The notes beneath the pieces are model-generated. The model was not told the origin of the DNA and ran no database searches. It saw nothing but the letters and a program-made list of their open reading frames with translations. Positions 5,253-53,331 of a stretch of 64,000 nucleotides of DNA are shown piece by piece. Numbering within the stretch: position 1 is the first letter of the stretch; the number at the start of each line of letters is the position of its first letter. The position numbers were made by a program, and so were the translations under genes. This stretch comes from a virus. Location: IMG/VR virus record IMGVR_UViG_3300044765_000092, positions 94,679 to 158,678 of that record, one strand, 5' to 3'.

Positions 5253-8177
5253 TTACCCATGCTGATTTTGATTGATGAGGAATTCTCCAGGTTGGAGAAC
5301 ACGTACCTCATCACCATCCACTACTACTGCTGTACCTGGAACGGTGGTCTGGCCACGGCGTTGCCACAACGCCAGTGTCGAAGGATCCAACACCAACGGA
5401 TACAGACCGGAACTGAACTCGGCATCCGACAGTTCACGCCACGAACCATCGATCCGAACACATACGCCACGAACTGAGTGAGCAACGCCGACGGTGGACC
5501 CGACTATGTCTCGTCCCTCAGTCAGCGCAGTATCACTGTGTAGACCCAGGGTAACGCTGCCGCTGGTCACCACGTCATTGTTCTCAGTGGGTGTAGCCAC
5601 AAGATTTATGTATGTGGTCAGACCACTGCCGCCACCCATAGTGTCATTGAGCTCGATAAACGGACCAGTTCGAGCATGCAACGACACAGAAGCTGATGAC
5701 GCCAGCGTGTCTCGGCCTTCTATAGGTTGGGCCACGCCACTGATCTTCGGACTGGCATTGGCCGTTGCTCGATCCCGACCTTCTGTCGGTAGGGCCGTCC
5801 CACTAATCTTGGGGCTACCACTCATCGAGTACGGAACATCGTTACCCTCAGCCTGCGATAGAACGATGTTGCCTTCGGATGCTGCGCTGAAGATTGTTGT
5901 ATCGTTCCGTTCCCGTGGTGATCCTTGGGCATGCAACGACACTGAGCCGGCAGCCGACACATTGTCGGCTGCACCATGAATCGAGGCGTTAGCGTGCCCC
6001 TTCCACGATGCCGAAGACACCGATGTGTCAGCCCCCTCAATGGGCTGAACCACAATACTGATCTTCGTTGTGTCAGTTACAGCAAGTGTGTCCGGTCCTT
6101 CGGTTGCCGACAGCACTGCCTGAACGATCGAATGGGCTTGCGCTACAATCTGATCGTTCGCTACCTGCAACAGTGCCGAGATTCCAATGTATGTGGTGCC
6201 TGACGACGCTACCGTGTCGTCGGGCAGCAGATTGTTGGACACCGCGTCAACAGTCACTGACCCGTTGACGATCGAACTATCGCCCGTATCGGTGACCGAA
6301 ACAACAAAGATCGAACCATCATCCAGACGAGAACCGACAAAGTCGCCGAGTTCAGTCAGTGTGGCGATGCCGTCCAGTGTTTCGGACGAACCACCAGACA
6401 GCGTATCGGGCGCGCCTACCAGATTGGCAATCGCGTGTACAGACCAATGAGCAGTAGCACTACCGATGAAGTCTGAAGCTTCCTGCACCGAGGTGGTCAG
6501 GTTCGTCGTTATTGTGCCTGACGCAGTATCGGTGTCCGGCGCTTCGACCACTGAGAGACTTGCACTTGGCGACGCCGAACTACCCGACGACTCAGTGTCT
6601 GATGCTTCGGTCATCGAGACCGCTGCATCGATAAGAGTGCTGACCAACACCCCGACAGTATCACCGTCGTCAGTCTTGGTAAGCGTTGCGTCGAGTGGTG
6701 AGTGACTTGTGGTCGAAAGAGTGTCAGGGCCTTCGGTTGGCGAGGCCGCTGCGTGGATACCATCCCACGAAGTGGTGCTCACCACCGTATCGTTAGGTCC
6801 AATCAGAGTGGCAACCGCATCAACCACTAGGCTGGCGGCCGACACATCAGTGTCGTTTGCCTCCAGGATCACCGCGCCGATTAGGATCGCGGTCCCAGCA
6901 GCTGACAGAGTGTCGTTACCCTCGATGACCGACAAATCTGTCGACGTCGGCAGCGAGGCTTCAGCTGCTAGTACGTCGCTGGGCTCGATAGGCGCACCCA
7001 CTGCCTTGTTCACATCGAAGAAGTAGGCATCAACGATCAACAGATCGCTGGCAGTGCCAACCGTCTCGGATGGGAATTCTACGTAAGGTGCTGTTGTCGT
7101 TACCTTGAACTCTTGACCGTGGTATTGAGCACCAGTCGGATCATCGTTCAGCGTAACGAGATAGTCAGAGTTGCCTGTGTACGAAGTCTGGGCCGCAAGA
7201 CTGGCAAACGAAGCGACCACAATACCAGTGCCGAGAATAGGCAAGCTATCGGTCGATGCAGTGGTCGCCGATTCCGCTGTACCCCAATTCTCGGACGCAA
7301 ACGGCAGTGTCAAATCCAAGCCCGAAAGCTCGGTCGACATGATGCTCGCACGATTGACCGGACTGCCGAAATTGACAGTCACAATGTCAGCCGAGTTACC
7401 TACGATGTCCTTGACGTAGAACATCTGCAGATGTAGGGTGTTGACACTCGTGCTACGCTGAGTTAGCGACGTCCAAGTATTGCCTGCCGTGTCGCTAATC
7501 GTAAGCGTAGTGGGCGAACCCTCGTACCGAACGCTCACAACCATCAGATTGTGGTCGAGCGTCAATTGACCATCAGTGCTGATAGTCGACACAGGACCGA
7601 CAGCCCATCCATTGGAGGTGGATTGGATACGGTCTTGTGGGTGAGCGAACGACGATACAATATCGTTCGCTTCAGTTATCGAGGTAGTGGCATCCAGCGC
7701 CACTGAACCCGATGCAGTTCGGCCGTCGTTAGCTTCCTGTTTGGAGAACGTGGCGTCGAGCGCCACTGAACCCAAAGACGAGAGCGTTGTGTTGGCTTCG
7801 ACGATCGACGTGTTGGCGTGCAACGCACTTGACGCCGAGGCCGATACGCTGTCGGACCCTTCGGTTTTCGATACCGTCGCGTGCCCGGTCCACGACACAG
7901 TGGACGAGCCTGTGGCCCCAGCTTCAGTGATAGACGCCAATGCGTCGATCTTTACGGAACCGGACGCAGCTCGTGTGTCGGACGACTCAACCACCGTGAC
8001 GGTAGCACCGTCGGTGGCCGACACGGTAGCCGACACGGTATCCGAACTTGATACAAGAGAGCCCGCCAGCGCATCGATCTTCACGCTGGAAGTCGACGCT
8101 ACCTGATCGCCAGCCTCCGTAACAGACAGAGAACCAAGGACGACAAGGCTTTGTAGATTACTGAAGTAAAGAAGCAT
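5253..8177 (-). CDS. Large repeat protein, probable tail fibre or surface protein
   Basis: This 974-residue protein is poor in Lys and free of Cys-rich segments. About thirty copies of a roughly 25-residue unit are visible, each with the core [TVI]E-x-x-DT followed by Ser/Thr/Ala-rich sequence and a short beta strand such as GSVKIDA or GSVALDA. The array is interrupted at about residues 180-390 by a beta-sandwich-like domain (starting TLDHNLMVVSVRY). It ends in a distinct 80-residue C-terminal domain (from about 890). Repeats of this type build elongated stalks in surface and fibre proteins. SD AAGGGA lies before the ATG at 8177. Receptor binding is possible but unproven. Confidence 0.65.
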   Translation of the reverse strand: MLLYFSNLQSLVVLGSLSVTEAGDQVASTSSVKIDALAGSLVSSSDTVSATVSATDGATVTVVESSDTRAASGSVKIDALASITEAGATGSSTVSWTGHATVSKTEGSDSVSASASSALHANTSIVEANTTLSSLGSVALDATFSKQEANDGRTASGSVALDATTSITEANDIVSSFAHPQDRIQSTSNGWAVGPVSTISTDGQLTLDHNLMVVSVRYEGSPTTLTISDTAGNTWTSLTQRSTSVNTLHLQMFYVKDIVGNSADIVTVNFGSPVNRASIMSTELSGLDLTLPFASENWGTAESATTASTDSLPILGTGIVVASFASLAAQTSYTGNSDYLVTLNDDPTGAQYHGQEFKVTTTAPYVEFPSETVGTASDLLIVDAYFFDVNKAVGAPIEPSDVLAAEASLPTSTDLSVIEGNDTLSAAGTAILIGAVILEANDTDVSAASLVVDAVATLIGPNDTVVSTTSWDGIHAAASPTEGPDTLSTTSHSPLDATLTKTDDGDTVGVLVSTLIDAAVSMTEASDTESSGSSASPSASLSVVEAPDTDTASGTITTNLTTSVQEASDFIGSATAHWSVHAIANLVGAPDTLSGGSSETLDGIATLTELGDFVGSRLDDGSIFVVSVTDTGDSSIVNGSVTVDAVSNNLLPDDTVASSGTTYIGISALLQVANDQIVAQAHSIVQAVLSATEGPDTLAVTDTTKISIVVQPIEGADTSVSSASWKGHANASIHGAADNVSAAGSVSLHAQGSPRERNDTTIFSAASEGNIVLSQAEGNDVPYSMSGSPKISGTALPTEGRDRATANASPKISGVAQPIEGRDTLASSASVSLHARTGPFIELNDTMGGGSGLTTYINLVATPTENNDVVTSGSVTLGLHSDTALTEGRDIVGSTVGVAHSVRGVCVRIDGSWRELSDAEFSSGLYPLVLDPSTLALWQRRGQTTVPGTAVVVDGDEVRVLQPGEFLINQNQHG

Positions 8178-36250: not shown

Positions 36251-36481
36251 TCATCTCCTTGCTAGCTCGCACCGACGTCTTCGATCTTCGGCTGGTTGCG
36301 CCGACCGGTCGACCTCGAACTCGACACCCACGTTGTTCTGGTTGTTGATCAGCCAGTTGCCGACGGCCTGAAGCATGGTCCGTCCTCGGCCGACGTATGG
36401 CAATCCCGGAGCAGCCGGCTCGTCGACCACGAATTGATCACCCTCCTTGGCGATCTTGAGTTTGCGTTTGCCGTTGGTCAT
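36251..36481 (-). CDS. Small unknown protein downstream of NAMPT
   Basis: This 76-residue protein has a small beta-rich fold: basic strand, FVVDEPAAPGLPYVGRG, a helix TMLQAVGNWLINNQNNV, then a charged tail. Its start overlaps the NAMPT stop (ATGA), so it is translated with it. It may be a small partner of the NAD enzymes or independent. Confidence 0.55.
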   Translation of the reverse strand: MTNGKRKLKIAKEGDQFVVDEPAAPGLPYVGRGRTMLQAVGNWLINNQNNVGVEFEVDRSAQPAEDRRRRCELARR

Positions 36482-38007
36482 GCGGCAAGCCTTTCCCGGA
36501 TAGCCGACAACCTGGGCTCGTTGTACACGATGCCATTCTTGTAGACGAGCTCGTGCTGGTCTTCGTAGTTGTTGGGCATTGTGCCATCTGTCAAGAAGTC
36601 CCAGACCTTGAGTTCGCCGTTGTCCAGGTTGCGAGCCAGGGTCAGCAGACCGGTACGTGACTTCTTGCCTGGATCAGTGACCGGATCCTTGGATGCACCA
36701 ATCCACACTTCCTGGTCGTCGGCGTAGTGATGTTCGCCGTCGAAGAACGAAGTGCCACGAACAACCCACAGGGCACAGATCTTCTGCGCCCACTTGTAAG
36801 TGTCGCGGTTGACCTTCTGCAGCAGAGCACCACCAGAACCGAACACGAAGTTGTCAGGCGCCCACCCAGCGACCATCATGTTGCCGAGGATCGTCTGGAT
36901 GGCCATCGTGTCGATGCCGTCACCCCACAGCACGCCAACACCTTTGAGCGTGCGATAGTGCTTGGCGTTCTCGGTGTAACCGTAGGCCGAAGCCAGTTTG
37001 GTCATCACCTTGGGAATGATCTCCAGCGGATCGCCACTGTCTGGCCGCAGGACCACCTTGAGCGCGTTTAGGCTCTTGACGTACTCGACCATTTCGGGTG
37101 AGCAGAACACGTCGAGCAGACGCCACATGTCGTAGCCATCGCACACGATGGAACAGATGGTGCCGGGTCGGGCGTTGGCCAGACAGGCCATCAGGTAGTC
37201 CTTGTCGGACTGTGGACCCGTGTTCCCATACTGCATCTGGATCGAGTGCTCCGACGCAAACACCGAGAAGGCCGACATCTCCTCGTTAAAGTAGTGGTTG
37301 GCGTGGACCACTCCCTCCACAGTGTCACTTCCCATGAAGTTGAACGTGTGCCGACTACCGCCGATCTCAGCCTGCTCGCCACAGGTGACGCCGCGACCCC
37401 CAAAGTCGTGTAGTGCAAACGGGAGCATGTCGAGCGAACAGCCGGCGAGTTCGTAGAAGTGCTTGATCTTGAGCTTGGCGTCGTAGTCGTTCGTGGCGAT
37501 CGTCGACGGATACCACGCGGCTCTGAGCGTCGGCGTCTCCATACCAGAGGCCATCCAGTGGAGGTCTGGGTCCGTGCAGGTGACCGTGTACATCGGGTCC
37601 TGGCCCCTGGCCTTGAAGCCGCCGGGCAGCGACCTGATGGTCAGCGGCACGTGTCCGTGGTACGTATTGACCACCTTGTTCCAGGCCTCTTCAGCAAACA
37701 GGGGTCGCCCAAAGTGCTTCTGGGCAAACGCCTTGGCACGGAGGACATCGTCGTTGGTGATGCGCTGCTTCACCAGATACTTTTCACAGAAGTCGTGCAT
37801 ATCGCCGGCGACGATCGTCTGCTGAGGACTGACGCGGGCAGTGCCGTAGGCCGACTGGCCGATGACATTGGGGTTTTGGGCGAACGGGTGACCGAACTTG
37901 TAGCTATCGGTCCGCAGGATCATGCTGAGAATCGGGTCGTCCTTGGCGATGTACGGGACATCGTCGTTGGAAGCGCCTTGGATGAATTGGTCGAGAGTGC
38001 GTGCCAT
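36478..38007 (-). CDS. nadV: Nicotinamide phosphoribosyltransferase
   Basis: This 509-residue protein is the first enzyme of the two-step route from nicotinamide plus PRPP to NMN. Recognisable motifs are TDSYKFGH near the N-terminus, ALHDFGGRGVTC and FMGSDTVEG in the ligand-binding middle, SEHSI containing the His whose phosphorylation drives catalysis in the family, VVLRPDSGDP, and FGSGGALLQKVNRD. The length is typical. Together with the nearby NMN adenylyltransferase it can rebuild NAD from its breakdown product. Such pairs in phages counter NAD-depleting defence. Confidence 0.92.
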   Translation of the reverse strand: MARTLDQFIQGASNDDVPYIAKDDPILSMILRTDSYKFGHPFAQNPNVIGQSAYGTARVSPQQTIVAGDMHDFCEKYLVKQRITNDDVLRAKAFAQKHFGRPLFAEEAWNKVVNTYHGHVPLTIRSLPGGFKARGQDPMYTVTCTDPDLHWMASGMETPTLRAAWYPSTIATNDYDAKLKIKHFYELAGCSLDMLPFALHDFGGRGVTCGEQAEIGGSRHTFNFMGSDTVEGVVHANHYFNEEMSAFSVFASEHSIQMQYGNTGPQSDKDYLMACLANARPGTICSIVCDGYDMWRLLDVFCSPEMVEYVKSLNALKVVLRPDSGDPLEIIPKVMTKLASAYGYTENAKHYRTLKGVGVLWGDGIDTMAIQTILGNMMVAGWAPDNFVFGSGGALLQKVNRDTYKWAQKICALWVVRGTSFFDGEHHYADDQEVWIGASKDPVTDPGKKSRTGLLTLARNLDNGELKVWDFLTDGTMPNNYEDQHELVYKNGIVYNEPRLSAIRERLAA

Positions 38008-38663: not shown

Positions 38664-39887
38664 TCAGTCCTTCAGCTTGCTGACCATCGTCCGCAGGATC
38701 GGATCGTGATCCTCGAACCACTCATCTGGCATAGACAGCGCTCTGGCAATCGGGATCCACTGTGCGTCCAGCGTTTCGACCTCGACACCGCCACCCGGTT
38801 CCCCTTCTGGCACCTTTTGGCCGCTGACCACAGGCAGAGGCTTGGTGTCGTCGAGCTTGAACATGAAGCAGATTGTGAGTGTTCGTCCTCGGTTGCTACG
38901 TTCCGGATCGTCAAAGTATTCCCAGCAGACGACACTACCTCGGAGGATATCCTTGGTGATGTCGAGGGACCGCTTGCCGTCTGCTAGACGGATGCCAGTC
39001 TCTTCGGTGAGTTCTGCCAAAGCAGCTTCAAGCAGTCGCTGCTTGCCCTTGACAAATCCACCAGGGAGAGCCCACAGGCCACGCCCAGGATAATTGTTGC
39101 GTTGGACCGCGAGAATATGCCCAGACTGGACTACCACGCAGTCAACAGTAATGTACTGCGCCTCGTGATCAGGAGCACCAATGAATTGGTGCTTCGCCCG
39201 GTAGTCTTCGATGAACGCCCACTCAGCACACAGATCCTTGTACGAGTTGCGGTCACTGACGTGCAACGTACCGTGGACGTACTCCTGCAAGAACTGCAGA
39301 GTCGTTGGTGGAACATCCAGCCAGTCATCGGTTGCAAGATTCGGCGTCGCAGATGTGAACAGGCGGCGACGTAGGGCTGTGGCGTTTAAGTCCTTGCCAG
39401 CCGGAACCGGCGGTTTGAGTTCGAGCTTCCACCCAGGAAAAGCATGGAGGTACCACGTACTGTGATCGCGGTCACTGCCGACCAAAATGATCTCAGGGTC
39501 GTCCCAGTCCAGCGGGTTATTGGCGTCCTCTTCGACGTTCGATAGGCCAGTGCGAACAGCTTCTTGGACCGATTGGATCCACGCAGTGTCGTTGTACGGA
39601 TGATCTTGAAGTGGAAGTACTGACCACTCTTTCGTGCGAAAGGTGTCGTGCGCAGCAATCCAACGAAGAATCATGTCCTTGCGTTCGTCGAACGTGAACG
39701 GATTCTTGATGTTGCGCGATCTGAAAGATGAGCCCACTAGGATGATGACTGCGTCACCCTTGCGGAAAGCGTGCTGAAGATTCTCGACGTGTCCGTTGTG
39801 CAGGATCTGCATACGTCCAATATAGACGTAGACCTTGGGTCTACGCAGCGTCGGTTTGCTGAGCGTGATGGTCTTGCTGGTTGCCAT
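38664..39887 (-). CDS. nadM: NMN adenylyltransferase-Nudix hydrolase fusion
   Basis: This 407-residue bifunctional protein starts at 39887. Residues about 17-190 are a nucleotidyltransferase, with the HxGH motif (ILHNGH) and the late NATALRRR motif that binds ATP. It makes NAD from NMN. Residues about 255-370 are a Nudix domain, with box GGFVKGKQ...AELTEETGI. One Arg of the standard box is replaced by Ala, so hydrolysis may be weak or altered. The Nudix part may remove ADP-ribose. NAMPT lies 657 bases downstream. Confidence 0.88.
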   Translation of the reverse strand: MATSKTITLSKPTLRRPKVYVYIGRMQILHNGHVENLQHAFRKGDAVIILVGSSFRSRNIKNPFTFDERKDMILRWIAAHDTFRTKEWSVLPLQDHPYNDTAWIQSVQEAVRTGLSNVEEDANNPLDWDDPEIILVGSDRDHSTWYLHAFPGWKLELKPPVPAGKDLNATALRRRLFTSATPNLATDDWLDVPPTTLQFLQEYVHGTLHVSDRNSYKDLCAEWAFIEDYRAKHQFIGAPDHEAQYITVDCVVVQSGHILAVQRNNYPGRGLWALPGGFVKGKQRLLEAALAELTEETGIRLADGKRSLDITKDILRGSVVCWEYFDDPERSNRGRTLTICFMFKLDDTKPLPVVSGQKVPEGEPGGGVEVETLDAQWIPIARALSMPDEWFEDHDPILRTMVSKLKD

Positions 39888-39915
39888 GATAGCTCCTATC
39901 GTTGGCGGGTTAAAG

Positions 39916-39958
39916 GTGTAGAGCACTTCGGCGTGCCCTACACTGGTCATTTACAGTT
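39916..39958 (-). promoter_or_regulatory. Leader element of the NMN adenylyltransferase gene
   Basis: AACTGTAAATGA (minus strand, 39947-39958) is followed three bases later by an 11-base stem with one mismatch (GTGTAGGGCAC/GTGCTCTACAC, 39916-39943). The ATG is 29 bases further on, with TAGGAG ahead of it. The downstream NAD genes probably depend on it. Confidence 0.55.
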
Positions 39959-45040: not shown

Positions 45041-45652
45041 TCAGGCGGACCCACGTGCGAGCCGAAGCTGGATCTCAGCCATCACGCGCTGCTGAACCCA
45101 TTCCGGCTTGGTGGACAGCTTCTGGTACTTGCGAGCAAGTCCCATCGTGTCCTGTTCGTTCATCGACTTCATGATCCCGCGAACGATGCGGTCGGTGTCG
45201 ACCCCGATGACGATCTGGATCTCGGCAGCCGGACACTTGGTGTTGCCCTTGCTGTAGTGGCACTGCTTGAACGATTGCTGCGCATGCGGCACCAGATGCT
45301 TGCATTGCAGACAGTTCTCGCAGAAGATCTCGACCATGCCGGTGGTGTCTGTGAGCGCGGCGCTGGTTTCGTCCAGAATCTCGCTCAGGTCCATCAGCTC
45401 GGGATTGCGGGCGATTTCGATCGTGTCGTCCGAGGTTGCGGAATCGTTGGCAGCTTGATGGCCTGATCCCGGCACCGACTCGTCGATGATGACTTCATCA
45501 GCTCCGTCATCATCGAGGAAATTGGGCACCGCGTCGTCACCGTCGCTGTCGACCTCTTCCGGTTCCGGGGCTACCATCGTGTCCGGGTCTGTTTGCACCG
45601 GAGCACTGGTCGCCACCGCGATACTGGCTTGGTGGGTGGTCGTCTGAGACAT
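45041..45652 (-). CDS. Unknown protein with acidic N-terminus and Cys cluster
   Basis: This protein has 203 residues. The first 100 are acidic and Ser/Thr rich (probably disordered). Residues about 105-145 have six Cys and His (FCENCLQCKHLVPHAQQ and CHYSKGNTKCP), suggesting one or two zinc sites, and the C-terminal part is helical. It lies between the basic-acidic protein and the 140-residue gene. No family was recognised. Confidence 0.55.
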   Translation of the reverse strand: MSQTTTHQASIAVATSAPVQTDPDTMVAPEPEEVDSDGDDAVPNFLDDDGADEVIIDESVPGSGHQAANDSATSDDTIEIARNPELMDLSEILDETSAALTDTTGMVEIFCENCLQCKHLVPHAQQSFKQCHYSKGNTKCPAAEIQIVIGVDTDRIVRGIMKSMNEQDTMGLARKYQKLSTKPEWVQQRVMAEIQLRLARGSA

Positions 45653-45736: not shown

Positions 45737-46801
45737 TCACAGATCCCACTCATCGTCATCGTCTTCGTCGCTCGACTTCTTGCCACCCTTCTTGCCCTTC
45801 TTGGGGGCGGGTTCGTCTTCATCGTCGGACTCGTCTTCGTCGTCAGAGTCCTCGTCAGAGTCATCCTCGTCCTCGTCTTCATCGCGGGCCTTCTTGCCCT
45901 TCTTGGCGACCTTGCCCTTCTTGCCCTTGGGGGCCGGCTCGTCGTCCTCGTCATCGTCGTCGGACTCGTCGTCACCATCCTCATCGCCGTCTTCGTCGCC
46001 GTCCTCGTCGTCTTCGTCACCGTCTTCATCGGAGTCTTCGTCCGAATCGTCGTCGCCGTCCTCGTCGTCGGACTCGTCTTCGTCTTCGTCGTCTGCGGGC
46101 TTGCTCTTCTTGCCGCCCTTCTTGCCCTTCTTGGGCGCCGGCTCGTCTTCGTCGTCTTCGACGTCACCGAACTCACCGTCTTCCAGGTCGTCGCCGTCTT
46201 CGGCATCGGCCTCGTCTTCGCTGTCGGAGTCAGACCCAGAACCGGACTTCAGCATCTCGGCCGTGACCGTGGCATTGGCACCGTTGATCAGGTGCTTCTG
46301 GCCGTCGGTGTCGACCACCGTGTAGATGCCGTCCTTTTCGGACACGCTCTTAGCGAAGAACTCCGCGATCACGCGGTTGCCGCGGACATGGACGCCGGCC
46401 GCGTTCTTCATGACCACGCTGCTCATCGGTTCCAGCGTGCTGATGGTCTTGCCATTGCGCTTGTACTCGATGGTGAGCATCGTGCCGTCTTGTGCAGTGA
46501 CCTTGCCACCGACCAGACAGTGAACGGCCTGGGTCACCACGGTGACAAAGTAAGCGCCACCCTTGAGGGCACGCGGACTGCGAACTTGTTGGCCTTGTTC
46601 CTTCGCTGCTGCACGACCAGCCTTGGGACCACGCTTGTTCACCTTTTCTTCACGAGCTGCGCGACCACCGCGCGGAGCACGTTCTTTTGCGGCCGCACCA
46701 CGACCACCGGCACGAGCGCCTGCACCGCGACCGGCCTTCTTGGCAGCGGGCTTGTTGCGAGCGTTCTTCGGGGCCTTCTTGGCTGCTGCTTGACGAGGCA
46801 T
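45737..46801 (-). CDS. Basic-acidic nucleolin-like protein
   Basis: This 354-residue protein has three parts. Residues 1-80 are strongly basic (Lys, Arg, Ala and Gly), with RGG-like groups (GRGAGARAGGRG). Residues about 80-170 form a compact beta-rich domain (AYFVTVVTQAVHCLVGGKVTAQDG), perhaps Sm-like. Residues 185-354 are an acidic tail of Asp/Glu/Ser runs broken by three repeats of EPAPKKGKKGGKKS type. This arrangement resembles histone chaperones and nucleolin. It could bind the basic histone-like protein or RNA. The function is inferred from composition only. Confidence 0.6.
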   Translation of the reverse strand: MPRQAAAKKAPKNARNKPAAKKAGRGAGARAGGRGAAAKERAPRGGRAAREEKVNKRGPKAGRAAAKEQGQQVRSPRALKGGAYFVTVVTQAVHCLVGGKVTAQDGTMLTIEYKRNGKTISTLEPMSSVVMKNAAGVHVRGNRVIAEFFAKSVSEKDGIYTVVDTDGQKHLINGANATVTAEMLKSGSGSDSDSEDEADAEDGDDLEDGEFGDVEDDEDEPAPKKGKKGGKKSKPADDEDEDESDDEDGDDDSDEDSDEDGDEDDEDGDEDGDEDGDDESDDDDEDDEPAPKGKKGKVAKKGKKARDEDEDEDDSDEDSDDEDESDDEDEPAPKKGKKGGKKSSDEDDDDEWDL

Positions 46802-50407: not shown

Positions 50408-50671
50408 TCAGCCGCCGCTGGCGTTGCGCGTGGCCGTGATCGTCAGATCGGTGCGGACGTTGCGGTCCAGGCTGACGACCTTGCCCGCTGCGTCGCGCAG
50501 CGCCAGACCCAGGGTGGCGACGTCCTCGCGGATCTTCTTCAGCGCGGCACGCACCGTGGTGCCGACCGGGACCTTGACCTCGCCGCTAATCTGGCCGCTG
50601 ACCTTCAGCTTCACTTCCTGCGTGGTGTTGTTGTCGTTGGTGTTGTTGCTGCCGTTGGTGTTGTCGTTCAT
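50408..50671 (-). CDS. Ubiquitin-like beta-grasp protein ending in Gly-Gly
   Basis: This 87-residue protein starts at ATG 50671 with AGAGG upstream. After a disordered Asn/Thr-rich N-terminus (1-17), residues 18-83 follow the beta-grasp order: strand (EVKLKVSG), strand (GEVKVPVGTTV), helix (RAALKKIRED), then strands through LALRD, KVVSLDR and DLTITATR. The chain ends exactly at Gly86-Gly87, the free carboxyl-terminal pair that E1 enzymes activate in ubiquitin, ThiS and MoaD. It lies just downstream of E1-like and E2-like genes. PRTRC protein C and other bacterial ubiquitin-like modifiers are the closest known type. Targets are unknown. Confidence 0.72.
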   Translation of the reverse strand: MNDNTNGSNNTNDNNTTQEVKLKVSGQISGEVKVPVGTTVRAALKKIREDVATLGLALRDAAGKVVSLDRNVRTDLTITATRNASGG

Positions 50672-50801
50672 GGTAAACCTCTGAGGTTGAGTTGAGGGTT
50701 TCAGCAATGGACCTGTTGCTGAGCCAGGATCGCAGCACTGTCGCTGCGGATTCTGTTGATACTGAGCCGGTGGAACGGGAGGACTGTCGTCCTACCTACG
50801 T

Positions 50802-51521
50802 CTACATTTCCAGATCGAGTGCAGTCTTGAACTGCCTGCTCGTCATGGTCCATGGATCGACGCTGAACATAACTTCGTTCGGCGTCGCTGCTGGCCCCTG
50901 CATCACAAATGTAACAAACTGTAACGCAAGGTGCGCGGCCAGCATTTGGGCTGTGGGTCCCACCGACTGTATTGTACCACACGCCGCACGGTCGTGGGTA
51001 ACCTCGTCGTCAGAGTACAGCTCAGCTTGGTACTCGCGACGCTGCATCGGATCACGTGGTTCCAGGTAGTAGGAGGCACCGTTTTTCGAACCCATCCTGG
51101 CTTCGCCGTAAAAGTCCTGGTGGACCCGACACGAACCGAAGATGGCGGAACGCGCAGCCATGGAGTCCACGCAGACAAACACGTAGCTCTCGAACAAACG
51201 CTGCACCGACTTTTCGGGTTCGATACCATTGACGTACTTGGGCACCGCATTGACGACGATGGATTCGCCAACCTGCTCGGCAACGCGGGCGGCCGCGGCT
51301 TCGACCTTGAACCTACCCACGTCATTTACAGTATAGAGGTACTGGTTCGGCAGGTTGTGGAACTCCAGCACGTCAGGGTCGTACAGGTTGATGTTCTTGC
51401 AGCCGAGGCGTGCGAGATTCTGTAAAACCGCGCAGCCCAGGGCACCGACGCCGACGACAGCGATGAACTTGTCGTTCAGTTTGGTGGGGTCGAAAATGGT
51501 TCTGTGTTTGATCAGGTCCAT
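50802..51521 (-). CDS. E1/ThiF-family ubiquitin-activating-like enzyme
   Basis: This 239-residue protein has the adenylation fold of ThiF, MoeB and E1. The nucleotide motif is GVGALG (24-29), followed by YDPDVLEFHNLPNQYL with the Asp, Asn and Gln of the ATP and metal site, and Lys72 in RFKVE. VCVDSMAAR carries the next conserved Asp (119). Cys181 in RAACGTIQSVGP is well placed to form the thioester with the modifier. It should adenylate the Gly-Gly carboxyl group of the small beta-grasp protein and pass it on. It lies between the E2-like gene and the modifier gene, in one direction. Confidence 0.82.
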   Translation of the reverse strand: MDLIKHRTIFDPTKLNDKFIAVVGVGALGCAVLQNLARLGCKNINLYDPDVLEFHNLPNQYLYTVNDVGRFKVEAAAARVAEQVGESIVVNAVPKYVNGIEPEKSVQRLFESYVFVCVDSMAARSAIFGSCRVHQDFYGEARMGSKNGASYYLEPRDPMQRREYQAELYSDDEVTHDRAACGTIQSVGPTAQMLAAHLALQFVTFVMQGPAATPNEVMFSVDPWTMTSRQFKTALDLEM

Positions 51522-51567
51522 TGAGATCTCCTAGTCTGGTGAACACGCGCGTGATCACTGCCGTTGT

Positions 51568-53331
51568 TTATTCGTCAGATTCGTCGTCCTCGCCTTCCCC
51601 GTCCTCCTCGTCTTCGTCAGCGAGTTCGTTGCCAATGTCATTGGACAACGCAGCACCGACCGAGTTGAACTCGAAGATGTGAACACGTTTGCTCTTCACC
51701 GGGTTCTCGGGCTTGCGCTCAGGGAACTTTGTGTTGAACTTGCTGACTGCGCCGCTGTCGTTCGGGTTGACCGTCTGCAGGAATTCCAGCACGGTTAGGA
51801 ACGCCGTGTAGAAGTCGAAGGACGTCAACGCCATTGTCAGCGCATCGTGATATGAGCCCAAACACACATCAGTGTTCCACCCATGCGGATGGATAGCTTT
51901 GTCTGGGTTGTACGTCGGGTCGAGCGCCAAGTTGCGAATGTAAAAGCCGCTGCGCAGATCGTAAGTCACCTCGTAACAACCGAGATAACGATGAACCAGC
52001 TTTTGGTCCACGAACTCGATGTCCTTGGTGACCATCACAATGGAATTTTGGGTCACTCGCAATTGTTGCGCCAGCGGATACGCCCGTAGCTCGTCCAGCA
52101 CCTTACGGAGCTTACGGCGAAGCCCCGCCTTGATAGTTTGTTGAATGAAGGTCTGCTTGCCGAAGTCTTCGGCAGCCTTTGCCAGCTCGACGCGCAATTC
52201 GCGGATTCGCTCCTGGAGTTGCATCCGCTGACGCTGGGTTTCAGCAGCCAACACAGACACCCAGCCCTTGGCCACCGTGTCGAAGTCCAGATCGGTCTGT
52301 CCGACCGTCAGGTTGTGATCCTCGGTCAGATCGTGCTCCACGAAGTAGACCGTGCATTTGTGCCACGAATCGTGGATCTTCCACACGCCAGGGATCGAAT
52401 CGTGTTTGCGGTGCTCGCTGTTCCAGAAGTTCTGGAGGTCCCTTCCAAGGAGGCCTTCCGTACCATAATGGATGCCACGGATACGGACGTTGTAGAGCAC
52501 GTAACTGCGCGCCTTGCCTGAGTTCAGGTCCTCGAGCCAGAAATCACGCGCAGTATTGCTCTTTGCTTGTCCGCTGTTTGTGTGGGAACGAATCTGGTCG
52601 GCGATGTCACGAAGTGCATATCGCTCGGCTTCGCCTAAGCGATCGGAGACATCGATCATGAGGCCGAACGCGTCAAACGCCGGATAATCATCGCCGTCGA
52701 TGACCAACGACTCGATATACGAGTCGTAAAAGAACGGTATCTCGATATTCGACATCGGCCCGTCGGGACCAGCACGGTTGTAGCCGAATCCGTGTTCCCA
52801 CGTCCATTCGGAACGCGGTTTGTCTGCGTACCGGTCTTTCATGGCATTGAGTGCGTGCTCAGCCATCATCGATGTCGGAAACCAGAAGTACAGATGCGGA
52901 GGCCAGTCGCCGTCTTCCATCAAGCGGGTCGGCCCGATCACCGGGTCGGAGTCGTCACTGCCCTCGTCGTCCTCTTCGGCTTCTGCTTCGGGGTCCACGT
53001 CGGAAGGACGCAGTTCGCGTGTCGTATCTTGACGAGCAGCGGCCTCGGCTTCCAACAGTGACTCCAATGACGGCAGTTCTTCAAACTTCCAAATGCCCTT
53101 GGGTCGCTTGGTCAGCCCAAAGAGGGGCTTGATCTGTGTGAGGACCGCAAACGTCGGCCAGTTGTAGTAGAGGTCGCGACCGCGGAAGTCTCCCTTGCAC
53201 AGGGCGATCATGTCGCCGACAAAAATGTTCTTGGGACCGAGGGGTGCTCCGTACGGGTGAACGGCGGCCGGAGACGGTTGTTCTGCCGATTGTTGGGCCT
53301 GGGCCTGTTCGATGGTCGATTGATCCGCCAT
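51568..53331 (-). CDS. E2-like ubiquitin-conjugating protein, multidomain
   Basis: This protein has 587 residues. The E2-like part is at about residues 440-530, where YEVTYDLRSGFYIRNLAL leads to HPHGWNTDVCLGSY, the His-Pro-His...Cys motif (H481, P482, H483, Cys490) of E2-type conjugating folds in bacterial ubiquitin-like systems. The first 330 residues are unusual: a Pro/Gln-rich start, a globular part (about 30-90), an acidic patch (about 110-130) and a second globular region to 335. A coiled coil (about 365-415) joins this to the E2 part. The extra parts may choose targets. The tail is acidic. Confidence 0.7.
   Translation of the reverse strand: MADQSTIEQAQAQQSAEQPSPAAVHPYGAPLGPKNIFVGDMIALCKGDFRGRDLYYNWPTFAVLTQIKPLFGLTKRPKGIWKFEELPSLESLLEAEAAARQDTTRELRPSDVDPEAEAEEDDEGSDDSDPVIGPTRLMEDGDWPPHLYFWFPTSMMAEHALNAMKDRYADKPRSEWTWEHGFGYNRAGPDGPMSNIEIPFFYDSYIESLVIDGDDYPAFDAFGLMIDVSDRLGEAERYALRDIADQIRSHTNSGQAKSNTARDFWLEDLNSGKARSYVLYNVRIRGIHYGTEGLLGRDLQNFWNSEHRKHDSIPGVWKIHDSWHKCTVYFVEHDLTEDHNLTVGQTDLDFDTVAKGWVSVLAAETQRQRMQLQERIRELRVELAKAAEDFGKQTFIQQTIKAGLRRKLRKVLDELRAYPLAQQLRVTQNSIVMVTKDIEFVDQKLVHRYLGCYEVTYDLRSGFYIRNLALDPTYNPDKAIHPHGWNTDVCLGSYHDALTMALTSFDFYTAFLTVLEFLQTVNPNDSGAVSKFNTKFPERKPENPVKSKRVHIFEFNSVGAALSNDIGNELADEDEEDGEGEDDESDE

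Follow-up and report, generated by a model that had tools for sequence, protein, structure and literature searches.

Conjugation of ubiquitin-like proteins in bacteria is known mainly as a form of anti-phage immunity, and the locus described here raises the question as to whether phages own such a pathway themselves. The window, i.e., the whole stretch of 64,000 nucleotides that was analyzed, is part of a viral record of 238,018 bases (IMG/VR record IMGVR_UViG_3300044765_000092). A first-pass annotation, made from the DNA letters alone, had proposed a phage cassette of three co-directional genes at 50408-53331, encoding an E2-like protein, an E1-like protein and a ubiquitin-like modifier (Ubl). 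All three genes lie on the minus strand in the order E2-like, E1, Ubl and occupy exactly this span (Table 1). A Shine-Dalgarno-like purine-rich stretch is found at each gene start (GGAG, AGGAG and AGAGG), and because of this stretch the 87-aa ATG start of the Ubl was favored over a 99-aa TTG start. The features that had been read from the individual proteins were also recovered, namely HPH and Cys490 in the 587-residue protein (H483, C490), GVGALG and Cys181 in the 239-residue ThiF/E1 protein, and a modifier that stops exactly at Gly-Gly (...NASGG, codons GGC GGC TGA).

Table 1. Positions of the cassette genes and their predicted functional sites in the window
Feature	Position	Strand	Basis or remarks
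E2-like protein, 587 aa	53331-51568	-	Long, poorly conserved N-terminal part; helix and E2-like core; acidic tail
E2-like core domain, about residues 345-540	51712..52299	-	Most of the core at an AlphaFold2 pLDDT of about 75-97; leave-out HMM match to residues 378-534
Predicted catalytic HPHGWNTDVC, residues 481-490 (H483, C490)	51862..51891	-	Invariance among 51 relatives
E1-like adenylating enzyme, ThiF family, 239 aa	50802..51521	-	Pfam ThiF 6e-34; clade in E1 tree
E1 nucleotide-binding GVGALG, residues 24-29	51435..51452	-	G24 and G26 in 92/92, G29 in 91/92 relatives
E1 predicted catalytic Cys181	50979..50981	-	Cys in 90/92 relatives
Ubl modifier, 87 aa (ATG at 50671, stop at 50408)	50408..50671	-	AlphaFold2 model, Foldseek, homologous Ubls
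Ubl C-terminal Gly-Gly codons, stop codon directly after	50411..50416	-	Identical exact ending in 4/4 branch members

Beyond the Pfam match, the E1 profile matches the structures of eukaryotic E1, ThiF, MoeB and Cap2. The best equivalog model is ThiF (8e-25), although the 87 bits reached fall short of the 275-bit cut-off. Alignment of 92 relatives revealed that the adenylation residues G24, G26, D48, K72 and D119 are invariant. Classical ThiF/E1 enzymes carry an NLxRQ-type motif; the present family reads HNLPNQ, with Asn at the Arg position in 89 of the 92 sequences. In the E1 tree, the window protein falls with the HNLPNQ/Cys-type E1s of a phage family in which E1, E2 and Ubl genes occur together, with or without a JAB peptidase.

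For the Ubl and the E2-like protein, no convincing match to a Pfam family was obtained. The AlphaFold2 model of the Ubl has a beta-grasp-like order of elements (pLDDT 77), and its top Foldseek match was 8tyx_A, from a bacterial Ubl-deubiquitinase complex (E 9e-4), followed by 8tyz_B, from a bacterial E1-E2-Ubl complex (E 2e-3). The window Ubl is homologous to that of the Xanthomonas phage PhiXhv (E 1e-7) and to that of a large viral contig, L004 (2e-6). When the profile of the wider Ubl family was built without the window's own branch, it scored the window Ubl at E 0.004, whereas the best score among 1000 shuffles was 0.08, and we therefore regard this protein as a divergent family member. In the family, 17 of 35 members match Pfam ThiS (best 1.3e-7), while the family profile matched SAMP2-type Ubls (SAMP2/PF1061) in the PDB at 1.9e-9.

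An E2 family profile from which the window's branch had been left out matched the window protein at 3.4e-16, with none of 600 shuffled controls scoring better than 12; with the active-site motif HPHGWNTDVCLG masked, the match was still 4.8e-6. The segment IHPHGWNTDVCLG includes H483 and C490, and P482, H483, C490 and G492 are invariant among 51 relatives. Among the window ORFs, the E2-like gene is the sole carrier of the motif HP[HN]-x(3-28)-C[LW]G. AlphaFold2 modeled the core, at roughly residues 345-535, with high confidence as a long helix, a beta-meander, the HPH/Cys region and three helices, and this predicted order of elements fits that of the UBC fold. The N-terminal 320 residues are loosely conserved and mostly of low confidence or disordered in the model. 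The first-pass annotation had suggested a structural match as a check on all three proteins; it was obtained for the E1, through the profile matches to E1 structures, and for the Ubl with Foldseek, whereas the whole E2-like chain had no significant Foldseek match in the PDB. The best E2 in that search was the CBASS E2 8yjy_B, at rank 7 (E 0.87), and the one viral match below 0.001 was a 1146-aa uncharacterized phage protein. The E2 family profile likewise found no E2 among its matches to PDB sequences, and no Pfam or PHROGs family was matched. Profile comparison with hhalign against eight bacterial E2s (three CBASS E2 and five Prok-E2_B) gave a nominal P of 0.0024 with the catalytic Cys in register, compared with P values of 0.2-0.56 for JAB, Ubl and reversed profiles and 0.11 for a single PRTRC-B sequence. 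Support for the window protein being E2-like is good but not final. Matches of this protein to Pfam Apolipoprotein (0.017) and PADLOC PglZ (0.007) were rejected, as they look like coiled-coil or composition noise. Weak matches to the PADLOC E2 models were also set aside, because in bacterial genomes those models score mostly on a short C-terminal stretch, which is probably a zinc-binding tail.

Single-sequence scans of IMG/VR with the window E1 or E2 gave no matches, and alignments were required; a search with an E1 alignment retrieved 80 viral (IMG/VR) loci and 21 loci from bacterial MAGs. A neighborhood survey, the E2 profile and an iterative Ubl profile, covering about 100 loci, revealed a recurrent set of E1, E2-like protein and ThiS-like Ubl, mostly together with a JAB. 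The family motifs are HPH-x(3-28)-C[LWV]G for the E2-like proteins and HSH-x-M...SxxD for the JABs. Our cassette is a member of a large and broad, apparently undescribed, phage-borne family of Ubl kits. The grouping of the three genes is not accidental: four isolated jumbo phages (Xanthomonas PhiXhv-12, PhiXhv-15 and PhiXhv-16, and Erwinia Ep032) and two large viral contigs, L004 (141 kb) and L013 (178 kb), also contain the trio. Like the window, the PhiXhv/Ep032 phages encode an E1 (40% identical to the window E1 over its full length), a Ubl with an ...ASGG end, and a homologous E2-like protein in which IHPH...CLGSFH aligns with IHPH...CLGSYH of the window; the same two topoisomerase II genes adjoin the cassette in the window and in PhiXhv. 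Unlike in the window, the Ubl lies upstream of the E2 (order Ubl-E2-E1), and the E2-like protein has 892 aa with Cys-rich ends. In the annotation of these phages, the genes bear no label other than hypothetical or thiamine biosynthesis protein. Both L004 and L013 share the window order E2-E1-Ubl, and the E2 region of L013 reads TPHLKISGNSCW. In crAss-like phages (L009, L010) and Flavobacterium phages (L011), an E1 and a JAB, the latter annotated as 'metalloprotease', adjoin genes that, judged by eye, are likely E2 and Ubl genes; these E1s are mostly labeled as thiamine biosynthesis proteins and their neighbors as hypothetical.

Several arrangements within the wider family were noted in passing. 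Tandem head-to-tail Ubls, in 2-3 copies each ending in GSVKGN, occur beside E1/E2/JAB genes on four phage contigs (L057:8155-8904, L070:5290-5940, L066:7891-8424 and L069:8266-8697), an arrangement that resembles polyubiquitin. Two adjoining E2-like genes lie upstream of the E1 in L033, L047, L048, L051, L058, L063, L092-L094 and L107, possibly as one active and one inactive E2. The E2-like proteins at L007:90-1700 and L002:5196-7874 have long Cys-rich C-terminal regions, and in PhiXhv the N-terminal region is Cys-rich as well; these ends resemble treble-clef/RING-type zinc sites, and an E2-E3 fusion is possible.

The window, PhiXhv/Ep032, L004 and L013 form one clade of the E1 tree (99% SH-aLRT), and the absence of a JAB, which had been noted for the window, proved to be a trait of this whole branch. 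Neither Pfam nor the family's own JAB profile detected a JAB anywhere in the 238-kb record, the window included, and the profile found none in four whole clade records, of which PhiXhv-12 is complete and the others are perhaps incomplete. As a control, the same profile finds the JAB at 1e-98 in two relatives. The four distinct Ubls of the clade all end exactly at GG (ASGG, ASGG, GRGG and SSGG), in contrast to only 1 of 69 distinct JAB-bearing loci (L077, RGG), among which KGN or a longer tail is the usual ending. Fisher's test of tail against JAB gave p 6e-5 on raw counts, in which the clade represents about a single event; since the pattern is confined to one clade, it corresponds to roughly one evolutionary event. 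Bacterial operons with E1, E2, JAB and Ubl were predicted by Iyer, Burroughs and Aravind in 2006 (types 6a-6e), with the JAB expected to process the Ubl and to remove it from targets (PMC1779556). A simple reading, consistent with that prediction, suggests that the window branch dispensed with the JAB and fixed a ready-made tail.

The host record of the cassette encodes a phage ribonucleotide reductase, topoisomerase II and a head-tail connector, the last being closest to those of the jumbo phages Achromobacter phage Motura and Burkholderia BcepSauron and BcepSaruman. At tblastn sensitivity the cassette was not found in Motura or BcepSauron, and for this reason it is probably an accessory element of this jumbo-phage group. 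A Cys/His-rich neighbor at 45041-45652, common to the window and PhiXhv, was considered as an E3 or adaptor and rejected, as it is a general jumbo-phage gene that also occurs in Motura and in Burkholderia, Pseudomonas putida and Vibrio phages.

As a concept, operons of E1, E2, JAB and Ubl genes in prokaryotes date from earlier work (PMC1779556); new here is the JAB-less E1 branch whose Ubls all end exactly at GG. As in the window, each predicted operon of Iyer and colleagues groups an E1-like gene with a gene for an E2-like protein whose Cys is conserved and with a free-standing Ubl gene, and like the phage family these operons show a patchy distribution and tandem Ubls in some members (PMC1779556). 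Those operons are bacterial, and their JAB is always fused or adjacent, whereas the window branch lacks a JAB and its E2 has an HPH upstream of the Cys; the only phage example in that work is the tail protein TAPI with a JAB (TAPK), which has neither E1 nor E2 (PMC1779556). The Bil system (BilABCD) resembles the wider phage family in encoding Ubl, E2, E1 and JAB as separate genes. However, BilB has a CEHH with the His downstream of the Cys, unlike the upstream HPH of the window E2; BilD combines an inactive and an active adenylation domain, where the window E1 is a single 239-aa domain; and BilA contains two Ubl domains instead of one (PMC11354881). The Bub (bacterial ubiquitination-like) operons encode, as does the window, a pathway of E1/E2/Ubl type (PMC13373217); the Bub and window proteins appear to be similar only at the level of fold. 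The plasmid-borne PRTRC systems also have ThiF, E2-like and Ubl genes as separate units, but the window E1 scores 33.3 bits with the PRTRC_ThiF model against a cut-off of 144.75, and the one PRTRC-B sequence compared is without HPH and gave no significant alignment to the E2 family. In CBASS Cap2, E1 and E2 are fused, in contrast to the separate window genes, and the PADLOC E1-E2 models match the E1 part only. The first-pass annotation had referred to PRTRC or CBASS-type systems, and the conjugation logic that it drew from them is the best-supported reading, whereas membership in PRTRC, CBASS or Bil does not: identity with PRTRC, CBASS Cap2 or Bil is excluded by the PRTRC_ThiF score, the unfused E1 and E2, the single-domain E1, the HPH position and the lack of a JAB. 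No phage cassette of E1, E2 and Ubl was described in the literature searched, a set that covered the Bil and Bub papers and preprints only in part.

The ThiF match, the leave-out E2 profile, the Ubl fold and the co-occurrence of the three genes make a conjugation cassette in a phage, as first proposed, the best-supported reading, and we consider it quite probable that the trio is a phage-owned Ubl conjugation system that has shed both the JAB and the need for one. We infer its chemical steps, targets and purpose as follows. The E1 would adenylate the C-terminal glycine of the Ubl (Gly87) and take the Ubl on Cys181, from which Cys490 of the E2 would receive it; the final step would attach the Ubl to amino groups on proteins of the host or the phage. 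The extra N-terminal part of the E2 and its acidic C-terminal part may dock targets or replace an E3. In the wider family, the JAB, a metallopeptidase, would cut the Ubl tail behind the glycine and remove conjugates; in the window branch the JAB is gone and the Ubl is encoded in its mature form, ending at GG, so that tags would be attached without prior processing and may persist for long. A broader claim, which we hold tentatively and would place somewhat short of an even chance, is that a wide variety of phages operate a Ubl modification of proteins in their own right and that the window branch runs it one-way, with the JAB lost, the Ubl pre-trimmed to GG and the E2 enlarged by N-terminal and charged or Cys-rich parts that act as an E3.

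A narrower version of the conjugation reading, compatible with it, would have the Ubl joined to one dedicated partner, e.g., a protein of the virion or of replication, with a role in assembly or regulation. The topoisomerase II genes beside the cassette in the window and PhiXhv are in line with this, as is the reported interference of Bil with phage assembly through Ubl conjugation (Hor et al. 2024, cited in PMC13373217). No single neighbor was found to be conserved across the whole family, however, and the zinc-finger-like gene at 45041-45652 is present in cassette-free jumbo phages as well, and we regard a single dedicated partner as rather unlikely.

Two further readings dispense with conjugation by the phage. 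If the E1 gave the Ubl a thiocarboxylate, as in ThiF/ThiS or MoeB/MoaD, the genes could form a sulfur-carrier system for cofactor, nucleotide or tRNA thiolation; ThiF is the best equivalog of the E1, albeit below its cut-off, the Ubl family resembles ThiS, and public records call the E1 gene a 'thiamine biosynthesis protein'. This is quite improbable, given that ThiG and MoaE were both sought in the 238-kb record and neither was found, with positive controls, and that the partner found throughout the family is an E2-like protein whose Cys is conserved, usually along with a JAB, neither of which a sulfur carrier needs. Alternatively, the proteins could be decoys or inhibitors, homologs of host Bil, Bub or CBASS machinery that jam conjugation-based immunity. 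Homologs of defense parts do occur in phages, and Bil and CBASS are anti-phage systems of Ubl type (PMC13373217, PMC10097602). Against this stand the sequence distinctness of the family from CBASS, Bil and PRTRC and the retention of catalytic residues in 90-92 of the 92 E1s and in every aligned E2; as these residues are conserved, active enzymes rather than binding surfaces alone appear to be under selection, and a decoy role is very improbable.

If the preferred reading of an active phage conjugation cassette is true, phages tag proteins too, which could serve host takeover, virion building or the countering of immunity. The genes have gone unnoticed as 'hypothetical' or 'thiamine biosynthesis' because neither Pfam nor PHROGs has an entry for the E2 family. 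Named hosts were used to isolate the PhiXhv and Flavobacterium phages, which makes the idea directly testable, and the wider cassette is also on record in Bacteroides crAss-like phages. The JAB-less, GG-ended branch offers a natural comparison for the role of the peptidase.

Other genes of the window were recorded as separate observations. A nicotinamide phosphoribosyltransferase (36478-38007) and a cytidyltransferase/Nudix protein (38664-39950) are probably a phage NAD salvage pair and may counter NAD-depleting immunity. The ARAGORN tRNA-Arg at 6241-6332 lies inside a long ORF on the same strand (5253-8177) and is probably a false positive. The gene at 45737-46801 encodes a 354-aa protein with a Lys/Arg-rich start and a long tail rich in Asp/Glu and KGKKGGKK, which by eye resembles the product of L002:2645-3418, near the PhiXhv cassette.
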